From an uncultured Flavobacteriales bacterium (lineage in GTDB: Bacteria > Bacteroidota > Bacteroidia > Flavobacteriales_D > CAJJDF01), in the NCBI GenBank assembly GCA_905182785.1, contig CAJJDF010000055.1, forward strand, positions 1-36,390: DNA of 36,390 nt, given 5' to 3'. The position numbers were made by a program, and so were the translations under genes. Of this stretch, positions 6,413 through 20,936 are shown in pieces; within the stretch, counting starts at the first letter, position 1, and each line of letters starts with the position of its first letter. The notes below the pieces were generated by a model that saw nothing but the letters and a program-made list of their open reading frames with translations, did no database searches and was not told where the DNA came from.

Positions 6413-7687
6413 ATGAAACACCTTTTATTAACCTTATTAGCATTTACTAGTTTTTTAACTTCTTATGCTCAGCCAAGTAATGACAACTGTACAGGAGCGA
6501 CAACCATTTGTATAGGAAACAACAAAACTGGAAACACAGATGGTGCAACTGCACAAGTTTGTGCAACTTGTGCAGACGGACCAACCGTAGTTGGATCGGC
6601 ATGTTTTGATATGGAAAAAACAATTTGGTATCAATTTACAACCAATGCGACTGGAGGAAATGCAGACATAGCTATTTCTGCAATAAGTTGTTCTATTGGA
6701 TCTGGCGGAATAAGCGGAACTGTTTATGGAGCTCCTACTCCTTGTAATTCTGCAACATACACTTCTGTATCGAACTGTGTTGTAAATTCTACTGCAAATT
6801 TTACGCTTAATGCTATTGGATTGGCTGCTAATACAACTTATTATATTTTGGTTGCAAGTGAATCAGCAAGCTCTTGTGGTTTTTCCATCTCAATATCTGG
6901 GCCAGCAGTTGTTTTACCTCCAGGCTTAATTTCAATATCAAATAATGCTGGTTCTACGACTATTTGTCCAGAAGATGTTGTCAAATTCACAGCATCCACT
7001 ATGAATTGTACAAACCCTCGTGTAAAATGGTTTATTGACGGAGGCCAAGCAGAAGAAACTACAAATGGAGACGCTTGGAGCAGAAACTATTTTACTGATG
7101 GAAATGTTGTAACAGCAGAACTTTGGTGTGATTGCGGAGCTGTGTCAAACTCTAATGCATTAATTATTAATGTTCATCCATTCATAACAATAGATGCTGG
7201 TCCTTATGTAAACATTCCTTTTGGAGGTTCTACTCAACTTAATGGAACTGGTGGAGTTACTTACTCATGGGCTCCAGGAAGTACATTAGACAATCCAAAT
7301 ATTGCAAATCCTATAGCTACACCTCTTAGTACTACAAATTATATATTAACAGCCACATCAACTGAGGGATGTCGTTTTTTTGCTGATGTCATTGTTAATA
7401 TTTTGGATTCTATTTATATCCCAAATACTTTTACACCTAACTCGGATGGAGTAAATGACACTTGGCAAATTATGCTAATTGACAACTTCCCAAAAGCGGA
7501 GGTTACCGTGTTTGACAGATGGGGACAAATCGTTTTTAAAACAATTGGCTACCCTACTTCTGCAAGATGGAATGGAACACGAAATGGAAAAGCTTTACCT
7601 GCTTCTACTTATTACTATACGATAAGTTTAAGTATTGACTCCAAAGAAGAAAGAGTTAAAACTGGATCAATAACAATTATCTACTAA
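6413..7687 (+). CDS. Secreted cysteine-rich protein with T9SS type B sorting domain
   Basis: 424 residues. Signal peptide 1-19 (ending SYAQ). Residues about 22-165 form a cysteine-containing beta-sandwich of the kind starting NDNCTGA and containing TIWYQFT, common in secreted Bacteroidota proteins. Ig/PKD-like domains follow (about 170-255 and 256-330, including GGVTYSWAPG). Residues 332-424 are a type B C-terminal domain (gliding motility-associated/CHU_C family): YIPNTFTPNSDGVNDTW, VFDRWGQIVF, WNGTRNGKALPASTYYY. Such domains direct export through T9SS. The PorP/SprF gene immediately downstream is the expected partner. Function of the mature protein is unknown; surface adhesin is a guess. 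Confidence 0.9.
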   Translation: MKHLLLTLLAFTSFLTSYAQPSNDNCTGATTICIGNNKTGNTDGATAQVCATCADGPTVVGSACFDMEKTIWYQFTTNATGGNADIAISAISCSIGSGGISGTVYGAPTPCNSATYTSVSNCVVNSTANFTLNAIGLAANTTYYILVASESASSCGFSISISGPAVVLPPGLISISNNAGSTTICPEDVVKFTASTMNCTNPRVKWFIDGGQAEETTNGDAWSRNYFTDGNVVTAELWCDCGAVSNSNALIINVHPFITIDAGPYVNIPFGGSTQLNGTGGVTYSWAPGSTLDNPNIANPIATPLSTTNYILTATSTEGCRFFADVIVNILDSIYIPNTFTPNSDGVNDTWQIMLIDNFPKAEVTVFDRWGQIVFKTIGYPTSARWNGTRNGKALPASTYYYTISLSIDSKEERVKTGSITIIY

Positions 7688-7717
7688 GTCCATAACGGGC
7701 AATTAATTATTGAAAAC

Positions 7718-7746
7718 CAACTGCCATAAAAAAAGTGGCTCAGTTG
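7718..7746 (+). other. Hairpin between cargo and SprF-like gene
   Basis: CAACTG-CCA, a 9-base A-rich loop, then TGG-CT-CAGTTG: nine pairs with a 2-base bulge. No T-run follows on the plus strand, so it is not a standard terminator. It could attenuate or stabilise the transcript between cargo and partner. Confidence 0.35.
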
Positions 7747-7771
7747 CAAACTAACTAACAATTTGATACAG

Positions 7772-8704
7772 ATGAGAAAAATAATTTTAATTAGTTTATT
7801 AATAAGTACCTCTTCGCTATTTGCACAACAAATTCCGCAATACACGAATTATTTATTAAATCAATTTGCTTACAATCCTGCTGTTGCCGGAAGTAAAGGT
7901 TGTTTAGATCTAACACTCGGACACAGAACTCAATGGAGTGGATTTGAAGGAGCGCCAGTTACAACTTACGGAAGTTTTAATACTACTCTAAAACAAGATA
8001 AATTTGGATTGGGATATAAACATGCCATGGGATTAGTTGTATTGCAAGATTCTTATGGGCCATTTACAAGAACCAAACTTAAAGGTGCCTACTCTTATCA
8101 TTTCCCAGTATCAAAAAAAGTATTACTTTCTATGGGAATGTTTTTTGGTGTAGAACAAATAAAATTTGATGCAAGTGAAGTGACACTTATCAATAATAAT
8201 GATGCTGCGGTAAATAACTCTAAAAGATCGACTATTTTCCCTGAAATTACACCTGGTATTTTTCTACAATCGGATAAATGGTTTATGGGAGCAACCTTAC
8301 AACAAACACTTGGAAACGAACAAAAATCAGTTGGAACGAAAGACACCAGACTCAATAGACACGGTACTTTACTAGGAGGATTAAACATTAAACTAACAGA
8401 CGATTGGTCGGTTATTCCTTCTACTTTATTTAAGTTTTCTAAGGCTGCTCCATGGGCAATTGATATAAATACGATGGTAGATTATAAAAATAAATTTTCT
8501 ATAGGTGTATCCTACAGAAATATAGATGCTGTTGCTGGATTAATTAATTTCAATTTATTGAATTATTTTAAAGTGGGGTATTCTTATGACTACAGTTTAT
8601 CAAAAATTCAATTTGGAAGCTCCAACTCCCACGAAGTGACACTGAGTATAAATCCTTGTGGATTTAGAGAAGATAGTCCTTACGGGTGCCCTACCTTTAA
8701 TTAA
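7772..8704 (+). CDS. PorP/SprF family T9SS outer-membrane protein
   Basis: About 310 residues from the ATG at 7772; an in-frame TTG nine bases earlier is less likely because the ATG directly opens the signal peptide (MRKIILISLLISTSSLFAQQ). The mature N-terminus PQYTNYLLNQFAYNPAVAGS and the later TQWSGFEGAPVT are signatures of PorP/SprF. The rest alternates like an outer-membrane beta-barrel and ends with cysteines (NPCGFRED, YGCPTF). In Flavobacterium johnsoniae, SprF-like proteins are needed for secretion of proteins carrying type B sorting domains, and they are usually encoded next to their cargo, as here. Confidence 0.94.
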   Translation: MRKIILISLLISTSSLFAQQIPQYTNYLLNQFAYNPAVAGSKGCLDLTLGHRTQWSGFEGAPVTTYGSFNTTLKQDKFGLGYKHAMGLVVLQDSYGPFTRTKLKGAYSYHFPVSKKVLLSMGMFFGVEQIKFDASEVTLINNNDAAVNNSKRSTIFPEITPGIFLQSDKWFMGATLQQTLGNEQKSVGTKDTRLNRHGTLLGGLNIKLTDDWSVIPSTLFKFSKAAPWAIDINTMVDYKNKFSIGVSYRNIDAVAGLINFNLLNYFKVGYSYDYSLSKIQFGSSNSHEVTLSINPCGFREDSPYGCPTFN

Positions 8705-8783
8705 GGTTATCTGACAACCTATATTTATAGAAATAATAAATATTTACTTATATTTAACCTTATTCATTGATTAAAAAACTAAA

Positions 8784-11207
8784 ATGAAAAAAGGAATATT
8801 ATTATTATCGTCACTTATTTTTCCCTTCTTATTTCTAAGTCAAACCACCCAAACAGTAAGAGGTAAAATAGTAGATAAAGAAACTTTCTCTCCCATAATA
8901 GGAGCTACAATACTTGTTACAACTGAAACATCTAAAATACTTGGCGCATCCACAGATCTTGATGGAAACTACCGAATAGAAGGAGTTTCACTTGGAAGGC
9001 ATAGTATAAGGATTACGTATATAGGTTATTACAACAAAAATGTTCCAGTAATAATTAATTCAGGAAAAGAATTGATTTTAAATATAGGGTTAGAGGAGTC
9101 TTTTAAGACATTGAAAACAATAGAGATTTCTGGAGATGAAAATGATGGAGTAAAAAACGACATGGCTCTAGCAAGTGTAACCAGTTTTTCGGTAGAAGAA
9201 ACAAAAAAATACGCAGGAAGCAGAGACGACCCTGCTCGAATGGCTGCAAATTTTGCAGGAGTGCAAGGTGCAGATGATTCTAGAAATGACATTGTAGTTA
9301 GAGGAAATTCACCACTTGGGGTTTTGTGGAGAGTAGAAGGAATTGACATTCCAAACCCAAATCATTTTTCTATTGCGGGTTCTTCTGGAGGCCCAGTTTC
9401 TATCTTGAATAATAAACTGATGGCAAATTCAGATTTTTTTACTGCCGCTTTCCCAGCCGAATATGGAAATAGTATAGCTGGAGTTTTTGATTTGAAACTA
9501 AGGAATGGAAACAATCAAAAACATGAATTCTCGGGACAATTTGGTTTTTTGGGAACAGAAATAATAGCCGAAGGACCCTTGAATAAAAAAACAGGCTCTT
9601 CCTATTTAATAGCTTATCGCTATTCTACATTATCCCTTTTCGAAAGCCTAAATATAAAAGTAGGTACTGATGCTATTCCTAGTTATCAAGATTTATCCTT
9701 TAAATTAAACTTCCCACAAAAAAAAGGAGGAACACTTTCTTTGTTTGCTATTTCTGGACTTAGTAATATAGATATTATGTTTAGTGACGAAGAAAAACCC
9801 AATGAAGATCTTAACATTTATGGAGAGAATGACAGGGATCAACATTTTTCAACAGCAATGGGAGTAATGGGAGTGACTTATCTTAAGCCACTGAAAAAAA
9901 AGGCCTTTTGGAAAACTACTATAGCGGGCTCTGTAGAGCAGCAAAAAGCTACTCATGATTATTTTACAAGAACACTTAAGCCTGATGGATTGTATCAGTT
10001 AGATGACATGTATACTATTCTAAATTATAGATTTAGGCAATATAAATTTTCTGCTGCTACCTACATTAATAAAAAATTGAGCAATAAATCAATCTTAAAG
10101 TATGGAGTGAATACTGATTTCTTTATTTATGATTTTCACGACAGTGTATTTAGAGATAATACTACGCCAATTGGTGATATAGCCAACTACTGGGATTTGA
10201 GATGGGACTATAAGGGAACTGCTGCTTTAATTCAACCTTATGCTCAACTAAAACATAAGTTTTCGGAAAGATTTGTGATGAATTTTGGTCTTCATGCACA
10301 AGCATTTACTCAATCAGAAAGTATTTCATTGATAGAGCCAAGAGTGAGTATGAGATGGAACCTGGACGAGAAACAAGTTCTTTCTTCTGGAATTGGATTG
10401 CACAGCCAAATTCAACCGTCTTACACCTACTTTTATCAAATCCCAACTGGTAATGGAAGCGAAGAAAGCCAACACAATAACAAAATGGATTTCTCCAAAA
10501 GTTTTCATTCTGTGATTGGTTATAGCAATGCTATTTCTAAAAAGACATCTTTGAAAGCAGAAATCTATTATCAATATCTGTATAATATTCCTGTAGAAGT
10601 TAAACCATCGTCTTTCTCTATGGTAAATCAAGGGTCTGGTTTTTCAAGGCTTTTTCCTGATTCACTTCAAAACACTGGAACTGGAAACAACTATGGATTG
10701 GAATTAACTGTGAAACATAATTTTGATGCTACTTTCTACGTTATGTTTACTGGAGCAATTTATGATAGTAAATATAGAGGAAGTGATGGGATAGAAAGAA
10801 ATACAGACTTTAACGGAAACTTTGCTGCAAATTTTTTAATTGGAAAAGAGTTTAAACTTGGAAAAAGAGGAACTGCACTAATTGGAGCAAACATTTCCTG
10901 GGCTGGCGGAAAAAGATATGGATTGGTTGATACCACTGCATCTGCAATAGCTAGAGAAGTAATTTTCTTGGATGACCAATACAATGAAAAACAATTTAAA
11001 GACTATTTTAGAGCAGACTTGAAAGTGAATTATAAATTAAACACGAGTAAGTTAACACACGAATTTGGATTGGATTTAGTAAATGTATTTGGCATAGAAA
11101 ATATTCTTGCTTTAACTTATGCTCCCACACCACAAGATCCTTCAAGGATTACAAAAACTCCACAACTTGGATTTTTACCCTTGTTTTATTACCGAATTGA
11201 TTTTTAA
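8784..11207 (+). CDS. TonB-dependent receptor with carboxypeptidase-regulatory-like N-terminus
   Basis: 807 residues. Signal peptide 1 to about 20; CarboxypepD_reg-like domain about 22-110 (VRGKIVDKETFSPIIGATI, STDLDGNYRIEGV); plug domain about 125-240 (NDIVVRGNSPLGVLWRVEGI, AAFPAEYGNSIAGVFDLKL); then a 22-strand type barrel to the C-terminus, which ends in an aromatic-rich strand (FLPLFYYRIDF). It would import a ligand too large for porins, powered by TonB-ExbBD. It is not SusC-sized (about 1000 residues) and no SusD follows, so the substrate cannot be named. The stop overlaps the ATG of the next gene by one base (TAATG), indicating translational coupling. Confidence 0.93.
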   Translation: MKKGILLLSSLIFPFLFLSQTTQTVRGKIVDKETFSPIIGATILVTTETSKILGASTDLDGNYRIEGVSLGRHSIRITYIGYYNKNVPVIINSGKELILNIGLEESFKTLKTIEISGDENDGVKNDMALASVTSFSVEETKKYAGSRDDPARMAANFAGVQGADDSRNDIVVRGNSPLGVLWRVEGIDIPNPNHFSIAGSSGGPVSILNNKLMANSDFFTAAFPAEYGNSIAGVFDLKLRNGNNQKHEFSGQFGFLGTEIIAEGPLNKKTGSSYLIAYRYSTLSLFESLNIKVGTDAIPSYQDLSFKLNFPQKKGGTLSLFAISGLSNIDIMFSDEEKPNEDLNIYGENDRDQHFSTAMGVMGVTYLKPLKKKAFWKTTIAGSVEQQKATHDYFTRTLKPDGLYQLDDMYTILNYRFRQYKFSAATYINKKLSNKSILKYGVNTDFFIYDFHDSVFRDNTTPIGDIANYWDLRWDYKGTAALIQPYAQLKHKFSERFVMNFGLHAQAFTQSESISLIEPRVSMRWNLDEKQVLSSGIGLHSQIQPSYTYFYQIPTGNGSEESQHNNKMDFSKSFHSVIGYSNAISKKTSLKAEIYYQYLYNIPVEVKPSSFSMVNQGSGFSRLFPDSLQNTGTGNNYGLELTVKHNFDATFYVMFTGAIYDSKYRGSDGIERNTDFNGNFAANFLIGKEFKLGKRGTALIGANISWAGGKRYGLVDTTASAIAREVIFLDDQYNEKQFKDYFRADLKVNYKLNTSKLTHEFGLDLVNVFGIENILALTYAPTPQDPSRITKTPQLGFLPLFYYRIDF

Positions 11208-11638
11208 TGGCAGAAACAGTAAAATTTAAACCGCTTGTTTACCCAGCTAAAATATTATTAGCTTGGGGCGAAGCTATTGGTGGCAACAAAAAAATAAGAG
11301 ATTGGCTAGGTAAAAATGGTTATCCAGAGCTGTATACATTTGTATTCGCACTCAACTTAAAAGATGATGCTCGTGAATGGTTAATGAAGAATAAATACCC
11401 TCATTTACTGGCTTTAATTCAAGGTGTGGAAAGAAACAAAAAAGCGTTAGAGTGGCTTAAGAAAAATGAATTTGAAGTTCTTTGGAGAATGGCACTTGCA
11501 GGAGATGGAGACGAAGATTCTCTTACTTGGTTATTATTAAAACACCGCGATTTTGCCCATCTAGCTATAAAAATCAAGAAAGTAAAAGACGGGATTCAAG
11601 ATGATAATGACGATCCTCACAGGATAAGTAGAGTGTAA
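11207..11638 (+). CDS. Small tandem helical-repeat protein of unknown function
   Basis: 143 residues, not recognised. There is no signal peptide or membrane segment, so it is probably cytoplasmic. Residues 30-55, 56-80, 81-105 and 106-130 are four tandem units of 25-26 residues following the pattern [IRL]xWLxKNxYPxLxxxxxGxxxxxxA (IRDWLGKNGYP, REWLMKNKYPH, LEWLKKNEFEV, LTWLLLKHRDF). Residues about 12-29 (YPAKILLAWGEAIGGNKK) look like the end of a degenerate unit at the front. Each unit would fold as two short helices, so a small alpha-solenoid binding protein is plausible. The tail is acidic (QDDNDDP). It starts at the stop of the TonB receptor gene (TAATG) and ends 3 bases from the convergent sugar operon. 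Confidence 0.8.
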   Translation: MAETVKFKPLVYPAKILLAWGEAIGGNKKIRDWLGKNGYPELYTFVFALNLKDDAREWLMKNKYPHLLALIQGVERNKKALEWLKKNEFEVLWRMALAGDGDEDSLTWLLLKHRDFAHLAIKIKKVKDGIQDDNDDPHRISRV

Positions 11639-11641
11639 CCT

Positions 11642-12934
11642 TTACAAACTCCAGTACTCAATGTTAGTAATCTTATCTTTCATTATTCCTTTTACATCAA
11701 CAAAAACTCCCTTGCCTGTATGTAAGAAACTTTGGAAGTAGGATTCATCTAACTTTACATATTCTTCGTGATTTACTGCCAAAATAATTGCGTCATATTT
11801 TCCTATAGGTTCTACAACCAATCCAAATCCATATTCATGCATCAATTCTTCCGAACTTGCATGTGCATCTACTACCTCAACATTACAAGAAAATGATTCT
11901 AATTCACGAATTACATCTACCACTTTAGAGTTTCTGATATCACTTACATTCTCTTTGAAAGTAGCCCCCATTACAAGAACTCTCGCATCCATAATGTTAG
12001 TTCCTTGCGATAGAATTTTCTTTACAGTTTGTTTTCCAATGTAAAACCCCATAGAATCATTCACGTATCTTCCTGAATTAATTACTTTGGCATGGTATCC
12101 TGTTTTTCTAGCTTTGTGAGTTAAGTAATAAGGATCTACTCCTATACAATGTCCTCCCACAAGTCCTGGTTTGAAATTTAAGAAATTCCATTTTGTTCCA
12201 GCAGCTTCCAATACATCATACGTATTTATTCCTATTCTATTAAATATAATGGACAACTCATTAATCAAAGCAATATTTACATCTCTTTGCGTGTTTTCAA
12301 TAATTTTTGCAGCTTCTGCTACTTTTATTGAGGCTGCTCTGTGAACTCCAGCATCTACAACTAATTCGTATGTTTGAGCCACTTCTTCAAGCGATTCTGC
12401 ATCACAAGCTGAGGCTACTTTTACAATTGTACTCAAAGTATGAACTTTGTCTCCCGGATTTATTCTTTCTGGTGAATACCCAACTTTAAAATCTTCGATA
12501 AATTTAAGTCCTGAAACTTCTTCTAGAACAGGAACACAATCGTCTTCTGTACAACCTGGATAAACTGTCGATTCATACACTACATAATCTCCTTTAGACA
12601 TCACCTTAGCAACTGATCTACTTGCTCCAAGTAATGGGCCTAAATCTGGTAAATTACTTTCATCAATTGGTGTTGGTACAGCAATTACATAAAACGAAGC
12701 CGCTTTCAAATCCTCTAAATTTGCTGTAAAAGTAATGTCAGCTCCTTCAAAATCAGATGCTGTTAATTCTTTACTTGGATCAATGTTATTTTTCATCAAC
12801 TCTACTCTCTCAGCATTGATATCAAATCCTATTACCCTGATTTTTTTTGCAAATTCAAGCGCAATTGGTAATCCTACATATCCAAGTCCAATTACAGCTA
12901 ATGTTGCCTCTTTGTTTACTAGTTTATTGTACAT
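11642..12934 (-). CDS. UDP-N-acetylhexosamine 6-dehydrogenase (WbpA/WbpO/TviB family)
   Basis: 430 residues. NAD-binding motif VIGLGYVGLPIALEFA (residues 14-29); the catalytic Cys263 in GLVGGHCIGVDPYYLTHKA; SPERINPGDK (about 154-163), which is typical of the TviB/WbpO/CapL branch. These enzymes oxidise C6 of UDP-GlcNAc or UDP-GalNAc to the uronic acid with two NAD. With wbpB, wbpD and wbpE in the same operon the likely substrate is UDP-GlcNAc (the WbpA role), though sequence alone cannot separate it from GalNAc. It is last in the operon, 54 bases after wbpB, and no promoter consensus is visible in that gap. It is clearly distinct from the UDP-glucose dehydrogenase at 18488-19804. Confidence 0.92.
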   Translation of the reverse strand: MYNKLVNKEATLAVIGLGYVGLPIALEFAKKIRVIGFDINAERVELMKNNIDPSKELTASDFEGADITFTANLEDLKAASFYVIAVPTPIDESNLPDLGPLLGASRSVAKVMSKGDYVVYESTVYPGCTEDDCVPVLEEVSGLKFIEDFKVGYSPERINPGDKVHTLSTIVKVASACDAESLEEVAQTYELVVDAGVHRAASIKVAEAAKIIENTQRDVNIALINELSIIFNRIGINTYDVLEAAGTKWNFLNFKPGLVGGHCIGVDPYYLTHKARKTGYHAKVINSGRYVNDSMGFYIGKQTVKKILSQGTNIMDARVLVMGATFKENVSDIRNSKVVDVIRELESFSCNVEVVDAHASSEELMHEYGFGLVVEPIGKYDAIILAVNHEEYVKLDESYFQSFLHTGKGVFVDVKGIMKDKITNIEYWSL

Positions 12935-12988
12935 AAAGTCAGTCTTTTTTAGTTTTATGGAAAACTAATAATTTATAATTACATCTTT

Positions 12989-14011
12989 TTAATACCCTTG
13001 CTCGTCTCTTACTTTGTATATTCTTTCAATAATATCAACCACTTTCATCCCCTCTAGCGCATTGGTAGTTGTTTTTGTTTTACCATTCAAAGTGTCTACT
13101 ACATTTTCAATAATATAATTGTGATTTGCCGCAGAGCCTTTGTAAGGTCCGTAATCATTTGCTGGGTTACTAGGTGGTAACACAGGCATTTCATATCCAT
13201 CAATGTGACAATATTCCACTTCGTTCATGTATTGTCCGCCTACTTTCACACTTCCTTTACTCCCAATAATTGTAAGGCTACTTTCTAGATTTTTATCCCA
13301 CACTGCCGTAGAATAATTCAAGCATCCCATTCCTCCTTTCAAGAAATCAAAAGTTACTAATCCTGAATCTTCAAAAGTTGTAGAATCCTTATGAGTAAAA
13401 TCTTTGAAATTTCCCTTTATGTTATCAATATCTCCACACAACCAATACATGATATCAATAAAATGAGAGAATTGAGTAAACAAAGTTCCTCCATCTAAAT
13501 CTGGAGTTCCTTTCCATCCCCCTTTTTTGTAGTAACGATCGTCACGATTCCAGTAGCAATTAAGCTGAACCATATGAATATTCCCTAGCAATTTTTTATC
13601 CATAATCTCCTTAAGCCAAGCTGATGGCGGAGAATATCTATTTTGCATCACACAAAATACTTGCTTATTATTTTGTAAAGCAAGGTGCATAATATCTTCA
13701 CAATCTGCTTTGTTAAGTCCCATTGGTTTTTCACATACAATGTGTTTTCCGGCTTCTATTGCTTTTAAACTATGCGAAGCATGAATTCCATTTGGCGTGC
13801 TTACTGTCAGTACATCAAACTCTACATCACTTGCCAATAAATCATCTATTGAATTGAAAAAGGGAGCGTCAAAATTTTCTATGCCTAGCTCATCTTTTGG
13901 CCTAACATCACACAAAGCAGCTAGTTCAGCCCCTTCGTTTCTTACTATCATTTCGGCATGTCGTTTTCCAATATGTCCGTTTCCTACAACTGCAAATTTT
14001 ATTTTATTCAT
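12989..14011 (-). CDS. wbpB: UDP-N-acetylglucosaminuronate 3-dehydrogenase, Gfo/Idh/MocA family (WbpB-like)
   Basis: 340 residues. Rossmann motif VVGNGHIGKRHAEMI (8-22), the catalytic EKP motif (CEKPMGLNKADCEDI), NRYSPPSAWLKE, and the substrate-side GGTLFTQFSHFIDIMYWL with its conserved His. In the Wbp pathway WbpB oxidises C3 of UDP-GlcNAcA to the 3-keto sugar, reoxidising its NADH with 2-oxoglutarate made by WbpE. Its place two bases after wbpD, in one operon with wbpE and a UDP-HexNAc dehydrogenase, supports this over a generic oxidoreductase. Confidence 0.9.
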   Translation of the reverse strand: MNKIKFAVVGNGHIGKRHAEMIVRNEGAELAALCDVRPKDELGIENFDAPFFNSIDDLLASDVEFDVLTVSTPNGIHASHSLKAIEAGKHIVCEKPMGLNKADCEDIMHLALQNNKQVFCVMQNRYSPPSAWLKEIMDKKLLGNIHMVQLNCYWNRDDRYYKKGGWKGTPDLDGGTLFTQFSHFIDIMYWLCGDIDNIKGNFKDFTHKDSTTFEDSGLVTFDFLKGGMGCLNYSTAVWDKNLESSLTIIGSKGSVKVGGQYMNEVEYCHIDGYEMPVLPPSNPANDYGPYKGSAANHNYIIENVVDTLNGKTKTTTNALEGMKVVDIIERIYKVRDEQGY

Positions 14012-14013
14012 TC

Positions 14014-14592
14014 TTATTGTTTTACAGGAATTACTATTCCATCCTCCAATTTATATTCTTGTTTTGATTCTTCACAAATTGCTTTGTTTTCAGAATCAAA
14101 ATTTAATCTATGTCCATATTCACTTACCCATCCTATTTGTTTTGCAGGATTCCCTACCCACAAACTATAAGGTGGAATTTCTTTTGTTACTACTGCTCCA
14201 GCTCCAATAAAAGCATATTCTCCAATGTCATTTCCGCATACAATTGTCGCGTTTGCACCAATAGAAGCCCCTTTTTTTACAATTGTCTGAAGGTATTCTT
14301 CTTTTCTAATAATTGCACTTCTTGGGTTTATCACATTCGTAAATACCATAGAAGGGCCCAAAAACACATCATCTTCGCACTTTACACCTGTATAAATAGA
14401 AACGTTATTTTGAACTTTTACGTTATTTCCCAACTCTACAGCAGGAGAAATAACTACATTTTGTCCAATATTGCATTTATCTCCAATTACTGCATTGCAC
14501 ATAATGTGAGAGAAATGCCAAATCTTGGTTTCATTACCAATTTGACAACCCTCATCAATGACGGCAGATTCATGTGCAAAATAATTTGACAT
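14014..14592 (-). CDS. wbpD: UDP-2-acetamido-3-amino-glucuronate N-acetyltransferase (WbpD-like)
   Basis: 192 residues, close to the length of Pseudomonas WbpD. Left-handed beta-helix hexapeptide repeats run through about residues 10-155 (IGNETKIWHFSHI, IGDKCNIGQNVVI, VKVQNNVSIYTGV), then GPSMVFTNVINPRS, VKKGASIGANATIVCG, EYAFIGAGAVVTKEIP and VGNPAKQIGWVSEYG, all strongly WbpD-like. It acetylates the 3-amino group using acetyl-CoA, giving UDP-GlcNAc(3NAc)A. It starts one base after the stop of the preceding T9SS cargo gene and ends two bases before wbpB. Confidence 0.93.
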   Translation of the reverse strand: MSNYFAHESAVIDEGCQIGNETKIWHFSHIMCNAVIGDKCNIGQNVVISPAVELGNNVKVQNNVSIYTGVKCEDDVFLGPSMVFTNVINPRSAIIRKEEYLQTIVKKGASIGANATIVCGNDIGEYAFIGAGAVVTKEIPPYSLWVGNPAKQIGWVSEYGHRLNFDSENKAICEESKQEYKLEDGIVIPVKQ

Positions 14593-14593
14593 T

Positions 14594-17485
14594 TTATTTT
14601 TTAATTAATCGTTCTATTGTTCTTTTTTCTCCTGACTGAATCAACACAAAATACAATCCAGAAGCACATTCAGTAATGTTTAAATCTAATGCATTCAATC
14701 CATCTATTTTCTGATCTAGTATTCTTTTTCCCAATTCATCATATAAAGTTAATGTCCCTTCTTTAATTGTTTCATTAAACTGAATTTTAGCTTGTCCCTC
14801 CGTAGGGTTTGGAAATACTTTAACTATTAATTTATCTTTCCTTTTTATTTTAATACTTGCCGATGGATTAAATCTCACAGTATATTGAAATTTATAAGTT
14901 TCAGTTGTATCGCCATTAGTTCCTACTGCAAATACTTTGAAAAATATTTTTGTTCCTACAGGGTAAACAGGGATTGGTACATAAGTTGAATAAGTACTAT
15001 CTGTTGTATTTCTCATTCCCATCAAATTATTGAAAATTGGTGTGCCAATGGAATACTTCGCATAAACAGAAGTTAAAGTTCCACTGTAAGAAACTCTTGA
15101 AGTAATATGCTCTAACCATCCTTCTTTTGGAGCAACATCTGTTGGTTTGTCATTCAGCCAAGTTTGAGTTATTGCTGGGTAATTTTGTCTTCCTACCAAA
15201 GTATATTCCCATAATCCTCTACCCCAAACTGCTGCTCTCAATGTGTTAGATCCATTCACAACTTCCAATTCTTTGATGGTAGAATTTGGTAATCCTGAGT
15301 TGTGAAGCACCCAAGTTGTACCATTCATTGGCTTAGTAAAAACACCAATTTCTGCAGCCAAATAAATATTAGAAGCATTTGTATGGTCAATTACAGCACC
15401 TCTAACTGGCATATCACCAAGATTATAAGTGATATTTGACCAAGTACTTCCTCCATCTCTCGTGATGAAAACTTTTTTTCCATCATTTTGATAACGGTTA
15501 TAAGTTAATATAAAAGTTTCGTCATCCTTTGGATCAAAAGCAATATCGGTAATAGTATAGGTAGGCAAAGGCATACTATAAATATTAGTATAGGTAACAC
15601 CTCCGTCACTGGATTTCATTATAGATGCTCCTCTAGCTACTAGAATTATATCCGAATTATTTTCTGCAATGGCAGCTTCTGAAATTGTATTATTAAAAGG
15701 ATCTCCTCTGTATTGCCATGCTCCACCAAATTGATCACTTACATACACATCTTTCGCAAAATTAAACACCTCCATTTGATCGTTAGGATTGTATGCAAGT
15801 GGCGCTTCCCAAGCTCCATTTCCAGAACCATTTTGACCTGAAGGAGAAACTCCACTTTGGGTTAATCCCCCATCTGTCGTTTTTCTTCTCGTTCCGTATT
15901 GCACACTTCCCATCATATAATCGTCATTTAATGGGTGAATAATAGCTTCCATTCCATCTGCTCCGTAAAACTCTATCCAACTATCTTTATGCTTAATACT
16001 TGTTCCATTATCTTGTGATCCACTTATTGACCTAAAATGATTAGATTGACTGGCTCCCAAACTATAATTTTCTCTTATTCCAAGTCCATCACTTATTACA
16101 ACCCAAGTTGCTCCATTATCTGCACTTTTTGCAAATAATCCATCTGTACCCACATAATAAACTCCGTTTATGCATTTTGCTGGGTGTAAATCTGCATGAA
16201 TATAACTTCCTCCAGAGTGTAATCTTTGGTCATAATTTCCAGCTCCGTGGTTAGAATTACCTAAACTCCACCAAGTAACTTGATTAGATGTTCTCCCTCC
16301 GTCAGATGAAGTCACAACATCCACATAACCATATACCATTTTTGAAGTATCTAAATCATTTACTGCAAAACCTAAACATGATTCTGGTGGATTACTCATG
16401 AATGTAAAGTTAACTGCTTTATCTTTTGAAGTCCATATTCCGTTAGATGATGCGAAGAAAACACAATCGTTACAATCATTACTAATCGAAAGATATCCTG
16501 TACTTCCATTATTTCCTAGAATAGTATTAGATCCAGTAAAAGTTAATCCATTATTTAACGAATAAAATACTCTATTTCTATTAGCTGTTGAATTCGTATT
16601 TGTAACATACATAATACTGTTATTCGTAGAATGAAAATCAATTTGCTGTATATTTCCAGAAGAAATCACTTTTGTCCAAGTAGTTAAATTATCCGTAGAT
16701 CTATACAAACCTGCTGTAGTTCCAATGTAAATTAAATTTGCAATTGTTGGATGGTAAGCAATTTTATATATTCTAAAATAATTTCCTAATCCTCCTAAAC
16801 CAACTGTTGTAGGATTAAAGTTGGATAATTTCCATGTGTTCCCTCCATCAATAGAACGATAAATTCCATGGGAATAATTATTCCCTCCATTTTGAACTCC
16901 GATCAAAATGGAATCTGCATTGGTTGGTGAGGCTGAAATTGTTCCCACACCACTTGCCATAAGTGTATCTGTTGATCCTCCTAGCCATGATGCTCCTCCG
17001 TTTGTAGATTTCCAAAAACCTCCACTACGAGATCCCACATACATAATTTGTGTATTTGTTTTATGAATGTAAGAGGTGACAATTCTTCCTAAACCAGCTG
17101 AATAATGTCCTGTAATACTATCTAGATCATATGGGCCTAAATCTACCCAATTTCCATTAAAAATATTTCTACTGGAATGATCAGTCGTGTTCTGGTTAGA
17201 CAAAAATTTCCTGTAAGCCTTAGCTACAAATCTAGGATCTACATTACTTCTTACTCCTGAAGGTGCAAATTTACTTTCATTTTCGTTTTTCCATCTTTGG
17301 TAACCTTTATAACCAGAGCCTTTACCCATTCCATTTTGAGTAAAGTGTTTGTCAGCTTCTTTACAGACTTCATAAAAATTATAGGAAGGATCTTGCATCA
17401 TTTCTTTGTATAATTTTTGAGCCGAAACTGATTCGGAAATAAAGAATGACACTAGAATTAAAGCTATAGTTTTAAATATTTTCAT
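14594..17485 (-). CDS. Secreted BNR/sortilin-like beta-propeller protein with T9SS type A sorting domain
   Basis: 963 residues. Signal peptide 1-22 (SESVSAQ). The N-terminal region (MMQDPSYNFYEVCKEAD, GSGYKGYQRW) is one seen before this propeller type in Bacteroidota. Residues about 110-770 carry many Asp-box/BNR motifs (GGFWKSTNGGASW, GIYRSIDGGNTW, VFITRDGGSTW), as in VPS10/sortilin propellers. The last 80 residues are a type A T9SS domain: KVFPNPTEGQAKIQF, LYDELGKRIL, ASGLYFVLIQSGEK, ending ERLIKK. The mature protein would be attached to the cell surface or released. It is embedded in the sugar operon, 13 bases after the UDP-glucuronate decarboxylase gene and 1 base before wbpD, so it must share the transcript. 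Enzymatic activity is unknown; Asp-box propellers include sialidases but no catalytic set is evident. Confidence 0.92.
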   Translation of the reverse strand: MKIFKTIALILVSFFISESVSAQKLYKEMMQDPSYNFYEVCKEADKHFTQNGMGKGSGYKGYQRWKNENESKFAPSGVRSNVDPRFVAKAYRKFLSNQNTTDHSSRNIFNGNWVDLGPYDLDSITGHYSAGLGRIVTSYIHKTNTQIMYVGSRSGGFWKSTNGGASWLGGSTDTLMASGVGTISASPTNADSILIGVQNGGNNYSHGIYRSIDGGNTWKLSNFNPTTVGLGGLGNYFRIYKIAYHPTIANLIYIGTTAGLYRSTDNLTTWTKVISSGNIQQIDFHSTNNSIMYVTNTNSTANRNRVFYSLNNGLTFTGSNTILGNNGSTGYLSISNDCNDCVFFASSNGIWTSKDKAVNFTFMSNPPESCLGFAVNDLDTSKMVYGYVDVVTSSDGGRTSNQVTWWSLGNSNHGAGNYDQRLHSGGSYIHADLHPAKCINGVYYVGTDGLFAKSADNGATWVVISDGLGIRENYSLGASQSNHFRSISGSQDNGTSIKHKDSWIEFYGADGMEAIIHPLNDDYMMGSVQYGTRRKTTDGGLTQSGVSPSGQNGSGNGAWEAPLAYNPNDQMEVFNFAKDVYVSDQFGGAWQYRGDPFNNTISEAAIAENNSDIILVARGASIMKSSDGGVTYTNIYSMPLPTYTITDIAFDPKDDETFILTYNRYQNDGKKVFITRDGGSTWSNITYNLGDMPVRGAVIDHTNASNIYLAAEIGVFTKPMNGTTWVLHNSGLPNSTIKELEVVNGSNTLRAAVWGRGLWEYTLVGRQNYPAITQTWLNDKPTDVAPKEGWLEHITSRVSYSGTLTSVYAKYSIGTPIFNNLMGMRNTTDSTYSTYVPIPVYPVGTKIFFKVFAVGTNGDTTETYKFQYTVRFNPSASIKIKRKDKLIVKVFPNPTEGQAKIQFNETIKEGTLTLYDELGKRILDQKIDGLNALDLNITECASGLYFVLIQSGEKRTIERLIKK

Positions 17486-17498
17486 TTGTGTGGATTAA

Positions 17499-18482
17499 TT
17501 ATTTAATAAATTTATCGAAGTTATAGTGATCTACTTCCGACAACTCTTTATTAGATAATGATTTAAAAAAGTCGTATGTTATTTTCAATCCTTCTTGTCT
17601 ACTCACCTTTGGTTCCCAACCTAAGATTGATTTTGCTTTTGTAATGTCTGGTCTTCTTTTTTTAGGGTCATCCATTGGCAATTCTTTATAAATTACTTTC
17701 TGAGTCGTTCCTGTTAATTTAATTATCTCTTCTGCAAAATCGCCAATTGTGATTTCATCAGGATTTCCAATATTCACAGGCTCTGCATAATCTGATTGTA
17801 ACAGCCTACAAATACCTTCCACCAAATCATCTACATAACAAAAAGACCTTGTTTGTGATCCATCTCCAAAAACAGTTAAATCTTCTCCTCTTAATGCCTG
17901 GCCAATAAATGCTGGTAAAACTCTTCCATCATTCAGCCTCATTCTTGGTCCGTATGTATTAAAAATTCTAATTATTCTTGTCTCCACATTATGAAATCTG
18001 TGATAAGCCATTGTAATTGCCTCTTGAAATCGTTTAGCTTCGTCATATACACCTCTTAGTCCTATGGGATTTACATTCCCCCAATATTCTTCCGTTTGAG
18101 GGTGAATTTCTGGGTCTCCATAAACTTCTGATGTACTTGCAATAAGCATTCTAGCATTTTTTGCTTTTGCTAAACCTAATAAATTATGAGTTCCTAATGA
18201 ACCTACTTTTAATGTTTGAATAGGAATTTTTAGGTAATCGATTGGGCTAGCTGGAGATGCAAAATGCAAAATATAATCCAGTTCTCCTGATACATGAACA
18301 TAATTTGAAATATCGTGATTATGAAATTCAAAATTTTCTAATGGGAAAAGGTGCTCTATATTTTTTAATCTTCCGGTAATAAGATTATCCATAGCGATTA
18401 CGTGATACCCATCTTTAATGAATCTATCGCATAAATGCGAACCTAAAAATCCTGCCGCTCCTGTTATTAGTACTTTTTTCAT
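17499..18482 (-). CDS. uxs: UDP-glucuronate decarboxylase (UDP-xylose synthase)
   Basis: 327 residues, extended short-chain dehydrogenase. NAD motif [10 protein letters not shown] (8-17), [13 protein letters not shown], catalytic STSEVYGD with Glu119, YDEAK with Tyr146 and Lys150, [10 protein letters not shown], and RRPDITKAK with the conserved Arg. The SEVYGD/PASP combination marks UXS rather than a 4-epimerase. It converts UDP-GlcA to UDP-xylose plus CO2. It lies five bases after ugd, which makes its substrate, so ugd-uxs is a complete UDP-glucose to UDP-xylose module within the larger operon. Confidence 0.94.
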
Positions 18483-18487
18483 GTTGG

Positions 18488-19804
18488 TTATTCGTTTATT
18501 GTTTCTCTACCAATACTTTGATATCTCATTCCTAATTTTTTCATGTCTTCTAAGTCATAAAGATTTCTTCCATCAAAAATTACATTATCAGTCAATAATT
18601 CTTTCACTTTATTGAAATCTGGAGTTCTAAATACCTGCCACTCTGTAGCAATAATTAAGAAGTCTGAACCTTCTAGTGCTTCATATTGGTTCTCACAGAA
18701 AGTAATCTTATTTCCGTAAATAGACTCTACGTTTTCCATAGCTTCTGGATCAAAAGCTTTTATTTTACAACCTAATTCTAATAACGCGTCAATGATATAC
18801 AAAGCTGGTGCCTCTCTAATGTCATCTGTATCGGGTTTAAATGCTAATCCCCAAAGTGCAATTGATTTGCCATTTAAACTCTCTCCATAAAAACTTTTTA
18901 TCTTATCTACAATAATAAGTTTTTGTCTCTCATTCACCTCCATTACAGAATTAATAATCTTAAAATCAAATCCGTGATCGCTTCCTGACTTAACTAAAGC
19001 TTGCACATCTTTTGGAAAACAACTTCCTCCATAACCAATTCCAGGGAACAAAAATCTATTCCCAATTCTTGCATCAGAACCTATTCCTTTTCTCACCATA
19101 TCAACATCTGCACCTACTTTTTCACAGAAATTAGCTATTTCGTTCATGAAAGTAATCTTAGTAGCTAGAAATGAATTAGCTGCATATTTCGTTAACTCAG
19201 CTGATTTTTCATCCATAAAATATATCGGATTTCCTTGGCGTACAAATGGCTTGTATAATTCTTCAAGAATTTTTCTTGCCTTTGCAGATTCGGTTCCAAT
19301 AACAACTCTATCTGGTTTTAAGAAATCTGAAACTGCATACCCTTCTCTCAAAAACTCAGGGTTTGAAACTACATCAAATCCTATTTGAGTATTTTTTGAA
19401 ATGGCGTTTTTAACTTTCTCTGCTGTACCAACAGGCACAGTACTTTTATCAATAATTACTTTGTAATCTTTTATTATTTTCCCCAATTGATCTGCCACAC
19501 CTAAGATATAAGACAAATCTGCTGAACCATCCTCTCCTGGAGGAGTTGGTAATGCTAGAAAAATAATTTCTGCATCCGCAACAGCTGTTTCCAAGTTAGT
19601 AGAAAATTTTAATCTCCCTTGCTTTTTATTTCTTTCAAAAAGAACATCTAGCTGAGGTTCGTAAATGGGAACTTCTCCATTTTGCATTCTTTCTACTTTG
19701 TTTGCATCAATATCCACACAAACTACGTTATTACCGGTTTCTGCAAAACAAGTTCCTGTTACCAATCCTACATATCCAGTTCCAATTACTGCTATATTCT
19801 TCAT
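18488..19804 (-). CDS. ugd: UDP-glucose 6-dehydrogenase
   Basis: 438 residues. N-terminal NAD motif [62 protein letters not shown], and the catalytic Cys262 in [17 protein letters not shown]-terminal domain with [16 protein letters not shown]. Typical Ugd/TuaD, oxidising UDP-glucose to UDP-glucuronate. It starts 7 bases after wbpE and is followed directly by the UDP-glucuronate decarboxylase that uses its product. Confidence 0.95.
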
Positions 19805-19811
19805 CTTTTTT

Positions 19812-20936
19812 CTATTTAAATTTTTTAATTGTCGAAATGATTTTATCCAATTGCTCCTGATCTAACTCAGTGTGCATTGGAAGAGAAATTACACTTTCGC
19901 TTAAGCTCATTGTTGTTTCAAAACTTTGTTCCCTTGAGTTTAAATAATCATAAGCTTTCTGCTTATGCACAGGAACTGGGTAATAAACCATTGCTGGAAC
20001 GTCATTTTCTTTAAGAAAGTCTCTTACCTCATCTCTATTTATCTCTTTTGTTTTCAAAGTATATTGATGAAATACATGGGTAGAGTTACTATTCCTAAAT
20101 GGAATTTCTAACCAATCTACATCATTAAAAGCCTCATCATAAACTGATGCTACCCAATTTCTGTGTTTTATGTATTCATCCAAATATGGTAATTTACACC
20201 TCAAAATGGCTGCTTGTATACTATCTAATCTTGAATTCACTCCTATTTTATCGTGGTAATATTGTTTACTTTGACCATGATTCGCAATCATTCTTGCTTT
20301 CATTGCCAAGTCATCATTGTTAGTGAATAGTGCACCTCCATCTCCAAAGCATCCTAAGTTTTTTGAAGGAAAAAATGAAGTTGTACCAAAATCACCTACC
20401 GTTCCTGTTTTTACTGTTTTTCCATCAGAAAAAGTATAACAAGATCCAATTGCTTGTGCAGTATCTTCTATTACATAAAGATTATGCTCTTTTGCTATTT
20501 TCATCACCTCCTCCATTTCACTAGATTGTCCAAATAAATGTACAGGGACAATTGCTTTTGTTTTTGGTGTTATTGCCTTTTTTATTGACTCTATATCAAG
20601 GTTAAATGTTTTAGAATCTACTTCTACTAAAACCGGAGTAAGCTTTAATAGCCCAATCACTTCAACAGTTGCAACATAAGTAAAACTAGCAGTTATAACT
20701 TCATCACCGGGTTTCAAGTCCAAAGCCATCATTGCAATTTGTAAAGCATCAGTTCCATTTGCACAAGGAATAACATGTTTTACATCTAGGTATTCCTCTA
20801 ATTCCTTCTGAAAAAACTTTACCTCTGGGCCATTAATATATTGTGAAGACCTAACAACATCAATTATTGATTTGTCAACCTGTTCTTGTATTTTATTATA
20901 TTGACCAATTAAGTCAACCATTTGTATTTTTCCCAT
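19812..20936 (-). CDS. wbpE: PLP aminotransferase, DegT/DnrJ/EryC1 family (WbpE-like, 3-keto-UDP-GlcNAcA aminotransferase)
   Basis: 374 residues. Motifs: IPCANGTDALQIAMMAL, GDEVITASFTYVATVE, VHLFGQS, VIEDTAQAIGS (Asp158) and the PLP-binding Lys192 in TTSFFPSKNLGCFGDGGA. The phrase FFPSKNLGCFGDGGA is characteristic of WbpE and of the Porphyromonas PorR group. It transfers an amino group from glutamate to the 3-keto sugar formed by WbpB. First gene of the operon; a -7 element (TATATTTG, 20956-20963) lies 20 bases before its ATG. Confidence 0.92.
   Translation of the reverse strand: MGKIQMVDLIGQYNKIQEQVDKSIIDVVRSSQYINGPEVKFFQKELEEYLDVKHVIPCANGTDALQIAMMALDLKPGDEVITASFTYVATVEVIGLLKLTPVLVEVDSKTFNLDIESIKKAITPKTKAIVPVHLFGQSSEMEEVMKIAKEHNLYVIEDTAQAIGSCYTFSDGKTVKTGTVGDFGTTSFFPSKNLGCFGDGGALFTNNDDLAMKARMIANHGQSKQYYHDKIGVNSRLDSIQAAILRCKLPYLDEYIKHRNWVASVYDEAFNDVDWLEIPFRNSNSTHVFHQYTLKTKEINRDEVRDFLKENDVPAMVYYPVPVHKQKAYDYLNSREQSFETTMSLSESVISLPMHTELDQEQLDKIISTIKKFK

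Follow-up and report, generated by a model that had tools for sequence, protein, structure and literature searches.

The window analysed here, 36,390 nucleotides of DNA from an uncultured Flavobacteriales bacterium, carries a gene for a short α-helical repeat protein that is a core, normally single-copy gene of one order of Bacteroidia, with relatives in other families of the class. The 25-residue repeat of the protein is not a product of chance, and its status as a core gene, together with an unassigned and unusually short solenoid unit, is a stronger finding than the partnership with a neighbouring TonB-type receptor on which a preliminary description, made from the sequence alone, had centred. 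Of that interpretation, the novel repeat protein stands and the receptor partner for the most part does not. By a little over an even chance, we favour the product of this core gene as a cytoplasmic, non-catalytic α-solenoid adaptor that docks one conserved protein partner.

The reading frame and its junction with the upstream receptor-type gene were found as first described: the ATG of the repeat gene and the stop codon of the receptor-type gene share one base pair (TAATG). Inspection by eye reveals no evident signal peptide in the 143-residue protein, as that description had held, and the protein is probably cytoplasmic. Between sister genomes the gene is under strong purifying selection (pN of 0.16–0.27 versus pS of 0.69–0.82, with synonymous sites near saturation).

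Autocorrelation of the window protein peaks at lags of 25 (z = 6.4) and 50 (z = 5.6) under permutation of positions, and the 58-member family gives z = 10.3 and 7.4 at the same lags; none of 2,000 permutations reached the observed values. AlphaFold2 (AF2), supplied with a 58-row alignment of the loci, predicts helices at residues 14–24, 28–36, 40–49, 53–61, 65–74, 78–86, 90–99, 103–112 and 114–135 with a pLDDT of 91.3 and a pTM of 0.83. The predicted solenoid consists of helices of 9–11 residues joined by turns of mostly 3 residues and ends in a 22-residue helix, into which the fourth repeat unit continues. A divergent clade, at about 20–35% identity to the window protein, yields the same helix pattern (pLDDT 91.9, pTM 0.84; mean pLDDT of the five models 90.8–91.9); no strand is present in the models of either clade, and hhalign matches one clade profile to the other across 131 columns (E = 3.5 × 10−39; a few members are common to both alignments). 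The helices and the autocorrelation together uphold the layout proposed earlier, a half-unit followed by four 25-residue units, and the confident models bear out its helical-repeat solenoid.

Table 1. Features of the repeat gene and the gene upstream of it, in window coordinates; residue numbers refer to the window protein and conservation to the core clade.
Feature	Position	Strand	Basis or conservation
TonB-receptor-type gene (CarbopepD_reg_2 + Plug)	8784..11207	+	Pfam
Short helical-repeat protein CDS (core single-copy family)	11207..11638	+	143 aa, ATG start
N-terminal half-unit, residues 12-27, YPAKILLAWGEAIGGN	11240..11287	+	Y12 100%; W20 97%; E22 89%
Repeat unit 1, residues 28-52	11288..11362	+	E41, L42 100%; L34, A48 97%
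Repeat unit 2, residues 53-77	11363..11437	+	W58, L59, A69 100%; E75 97%; H66 91%
Repeat unit 3, residues 78-102	11438..11512	+	A80, W83, L84 100%
Repeat unit 4, residues 103-127	11513..11587	+	K127 100%
C-terminal tail, core-clade motif N-N-D-x-H-x-I	11588..11635	+	DDNDDPHRIS in window; D136 100%, H138 97%

Homologues occur in 237 of 245 genomes in a larger sample of the window's order, spanning 59 of 60 genera and nearly always as one copy; a genome search of relatives found one, almost always single, in 58 of 60. Across the class, a profile search matched 95 of 295 genomes, with the matches clustering in certain families. In a phylum sample the only matches were the three genomes of the window's order; as the genomes listed were all of the same class, this sample says little about occurrence in other classes. 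Named records with a homologue are labelled Flavobacteriales, Cryomorphaceae, Bacteroidales and Lentimicrobiaceae. No relative was found among viral contigs, plasmids or phages, the viral-contig query being the single window protein because the family alignment was too variable. We infer vertical inheritance of the gene. A sixth genome of the window's own family had no detected homologue, and one family (f49; L140:4108-4938; G134, G168, G199 and G283) carries two to three copies, sometimes in tandem. Apparent N-terminal fusions of 250–650 residues in the genus g43 were rejected as read-through into open upstream frames in GC-rich DNA; by eye, the real start of these homologues lies at MRTEYPAK or its equivalent.

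Sequence searches agree with the initial impression of an unrecognised family, with no Pfam or NCBIfam match to the window protein above cut-off. In a Pfam search extended to E = 10 its only match was GST_C_3 (E = 0.039, below that model's cut-off), and scattered weak Pfam matches of single members to SAM_3, Ish1 and VMAP-M5, with the scores shown below cut-off, were set aside, as were the PDB sequence matches 2jrt, 9r2o and 3sja, which are weak helical look-alikes. PHROGs and PADLOC gave weak matches (best E = 0.0033) and no assignment, and a literature search found no 25-residue α-solenoid. A structure search had also been proposed in the preliminary description; Foldseek found no relative in the PDB, with nothing below E = 0.7 for the window model or 2.3 for the divergent-clade model. 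VIA-align, run on Foldseek's own PDB candidates, gave Z values of at most 4.7, which is background level, the matches including TPR- and PPR-containing chains; because of that restriction, the low values cannot establish that the fold is new.

The pattern of conservation suggests where such a solenoid might bind. Several polar residues of the core clade are 90–100% conserved, E41 and H66 fall at equivalent positions of successive repeats, and so do E75 and D100, and the conserved polar positions include several acidic ones, with no basic residue in register in every repeat. On the adaptor reading, the half-unit, the four two-helix repeats of 25 residues and the long C-terminal helix with its conserved N-D-x-H tail would form the fold, E22, E41, H66, E75 and D100 would line a partner-docking face along the stack, and K127, D136 and H138 of the tail would join in docking one cytoplasmic protein. 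Protein binding as the activity is suggested by analogy with α-solenoids in general and by the conserved polar positions, two pairs of them in register; the cytoplasmic location and the binding face itself are likewise putative. The adjacent receptor would not be required. The N-N-D-x-H-x-I tail is a core-clade signature that is mostly lost in the distant clade, so the role of the protein may not be common to both clades. No fixed gene partner emerged from the neighbourhoods, and no database match assigns the family any activity. The predicted pI of the window protein, 9.2, counts against a protein adaptor and makes nucleic-acid binding possible, although the family median is 6.4; the two receptor adjacencies described below also weigh against the adaptor reading.

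A first alternative concerns descent and is compatible with adaptor function: the protein could be a divergent ankyrin-repeat adaptor in which truncated units retain the helix pair and have lost the β-hairpin. Each unit does comprise two short helices, Pfam Ank_4 is weakly hit by 5 of the 58 members (best E = 1.9 × 10−4), the distant-clade profile touches a single PDB sequence, that of an ankyrin protein (E = 0.88), and W-L-x-x-N-G-Y may recall ankyrin helix 2. However, the window protein has no ankyrin match even at E = 10, the PDB fold matches listed, none of which rises above background, include no ankyrin protein, and the period is 25 rather than 33 residues, with the TPLH motif absent. 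We regard such an origin as unlikely.

It is rather improbable, in our assessment, that the solenoid binds nucleic acid, RNA or DNA, as other short helical-hairpin repeats do. PPR and PUF α-solenoids bind RNA (PMC11514114), the window protein is basic, and PPR or RNA-binding chains appear among its weak structural neighbours (Z of about 3, within background). Against this, many family members are acidic, consistent with the median pI given above, and the conserved polar set is itself partly acidic and offers no basic residue repeated throughout the stack.

The gene neighbourhoods bear on the proposal that a solenoid synthesised together with a TonB-type receptor serves the same pathway as a regulator or ligand handler. 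The receptor-type gene of the window scores well above the Pfam cut-off for CarbopepD_reg_2 and below it for Plug. This receptor lies directly upstream of the repeat gene in four of five genomes of the window's family, at gaps of −1, 47, 3 and 55 bp, and two genes intervene in the fifth; with the 1-bp overlap confined to the window, even this family does not keep the TAATG coupling. Among the other contexts examined, one distant clade (f18, f31, f32, f53 and f56) is alone in having a receptor within 8 genes; there the receptor c1, together with its partner c3, lies directly upstream of the repeat gene or one gene away. This second receptor excludes the idea that the adjacency is confined to one family. 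Two receptor contexts in about 30 counted by hand are somewhat more than the 0.3 or so expected if roughly 1% of genes encode such receptors, a rough and post hoc estimate.

The two receptors are not orthologous, however: the best match of c1 in the window genome is at contig C13:7763-10414 rather than the window receptor, whose own best matches elsewhere lie at other sites, away from the repeat gene. Their stable partners are other genes. At L170-L172 the repeat gene is missing, yet c1 still has its CarbopepD_reg partner c3. In f9 the orthologue of the window receptor (L176) follows CHU_C and PorP/SprF genes as in the window, with the repeat gene absent, so that the conserved association of this receptor appears to be the one with PorP/SprF. 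On the evidence of gene neighbourhoods and of reciprocal best matches, we reject a conserved receptor pairing. The survey found no adjacency to an orthologous receptor across lineages and did find two independent adjacencies; it is therefore not the case that homologues never occur near receptors, and a functional tie retains a slight probability. With varying neighbourhoods, non-orthologous receptors and a junction peculiar to the window, the functional tie first proposed is not borne out; a receptor next to the repeat gene is mostly a local accident, not a fixed partnership. We consider receptor-coupled function very unlikely, and the partnership should not count as established. The two genes run in the same transcriptional direction and may be co-transcribed in the window species.

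Elsewhere the neighbours of the repeat gene vary by lineage and include methylmalonyl-CoA mutase, RluD, a nucleoside gate protein, an M16 peptidase and an SDR, as well as a DNA methylase, Nramp, a sugar transferase and formate–THF ligase, among others. The mutase lies directly upstream in f3 and f12, and in f2 and f11 it is no more than about five genes away; a link through it was set aside, since 276 of the 295 class genomes carry it and its presence or absence is therefore uninformative. The small gene c0 was rejected as a partner: of 61 genomes 30 carry it, some with the repeat gene and some lacking it, and no copy was found in the window genome. The TfoX_N-like gene c2, whose occurrence is patchy, was rejected too.

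Several neighbouring loci are of interest in themselves. c0 (L133:4556-4780 and relatives) encodes a conserved 77-residue protein (MRIIxxIPHPxxxI..MNDKYxVKFEAGPMEQ) with no Pfam match; the 30 of 61 are class genomes, and in the distant clade the gene often directly follows the repeat gene. c1 (L133:1534-4068) is a CarbopepD_reg/Plug receptor of about 840–900 residues with orthologues in all 22 genomes searched, apparently one each, and c3 is a small CarbopepD_reg gene upstream of it in several genomes. Window positions 6413-11207 encode, in a row, a CHU_C protein (type IX secretion signal), a PorP/SprF membrane protein and the TonB-type receptor. On the minus strand, 11642-20936 appears by eye to be a sugar-nucleotide cluster (UDP-sugar dehydrogenases, an oxidoreductase, an acetyltransferase, an epimerase and an aminotransferase) resembling a di-N-acetyl-mannuronate pathway, the Pfam check having covered 11642-12934; a 963-residue gene at 14594-17485 with a C-terminal sorting-like tail interrupts it.

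That 97% of an order's sampled genomes retain a single copy of a gene matching no curated protein or domain family suggests a core function there that has yet to be studied. We raise only tentatively the broader prospect that the protein represents an undescribed α-solenoid class, built from a minimal, hairpin-free unit of 25 residues and serving as a core component of a whole bacterial order; were this so, a conserved process in the order would depend on it. The unit is shorter than the common α-solenoid repeats compared here. Searches with two separately predicted, confident models found no PDB relative, so an experimental structure might establish a new class of solenoid, and it could also yield a compact scaffold for design.

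Among known repeats, the leucine-rich repeat variant (LRV) has a unit of similar length, about 24 residues; it alternates α- and 3-10 helices, and its motif differs from that of the present family. The window protein matched no LRV profile up to E = 10, and its DSSP string, in a notation with no separate 3-10 symbol, assigns class H to both helices of the unit. TPR, Sel1, PPR, HEAT and ARM proteins resemble it in stacking helix-turn-helix units into an elongated array, but their units are longer (PPR 31–36, Sel1 36–44 and ARM 42 residues; PMC11514114). None of these families gave a Pfam match to the window protein up to E = 10 or a VIA-align match above background, and hhalign against profiles made from typed consensus units, a weak test, gave a probability of at most 0.5%. 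Ankyrin repeats share with the family their tandem pairs of short helices, a small, adaptor-sized protein and, in a few members, a weak contact with Ank_4. No Ank model matches the window protein above the Pfam gathering threshold and the ankyrin signature is missing; where an ankyrin unit has about 33 residues and a β-hairpin, the strand-free models described here repeat every 25 residues, with three-residue turns in the hairpin's place.
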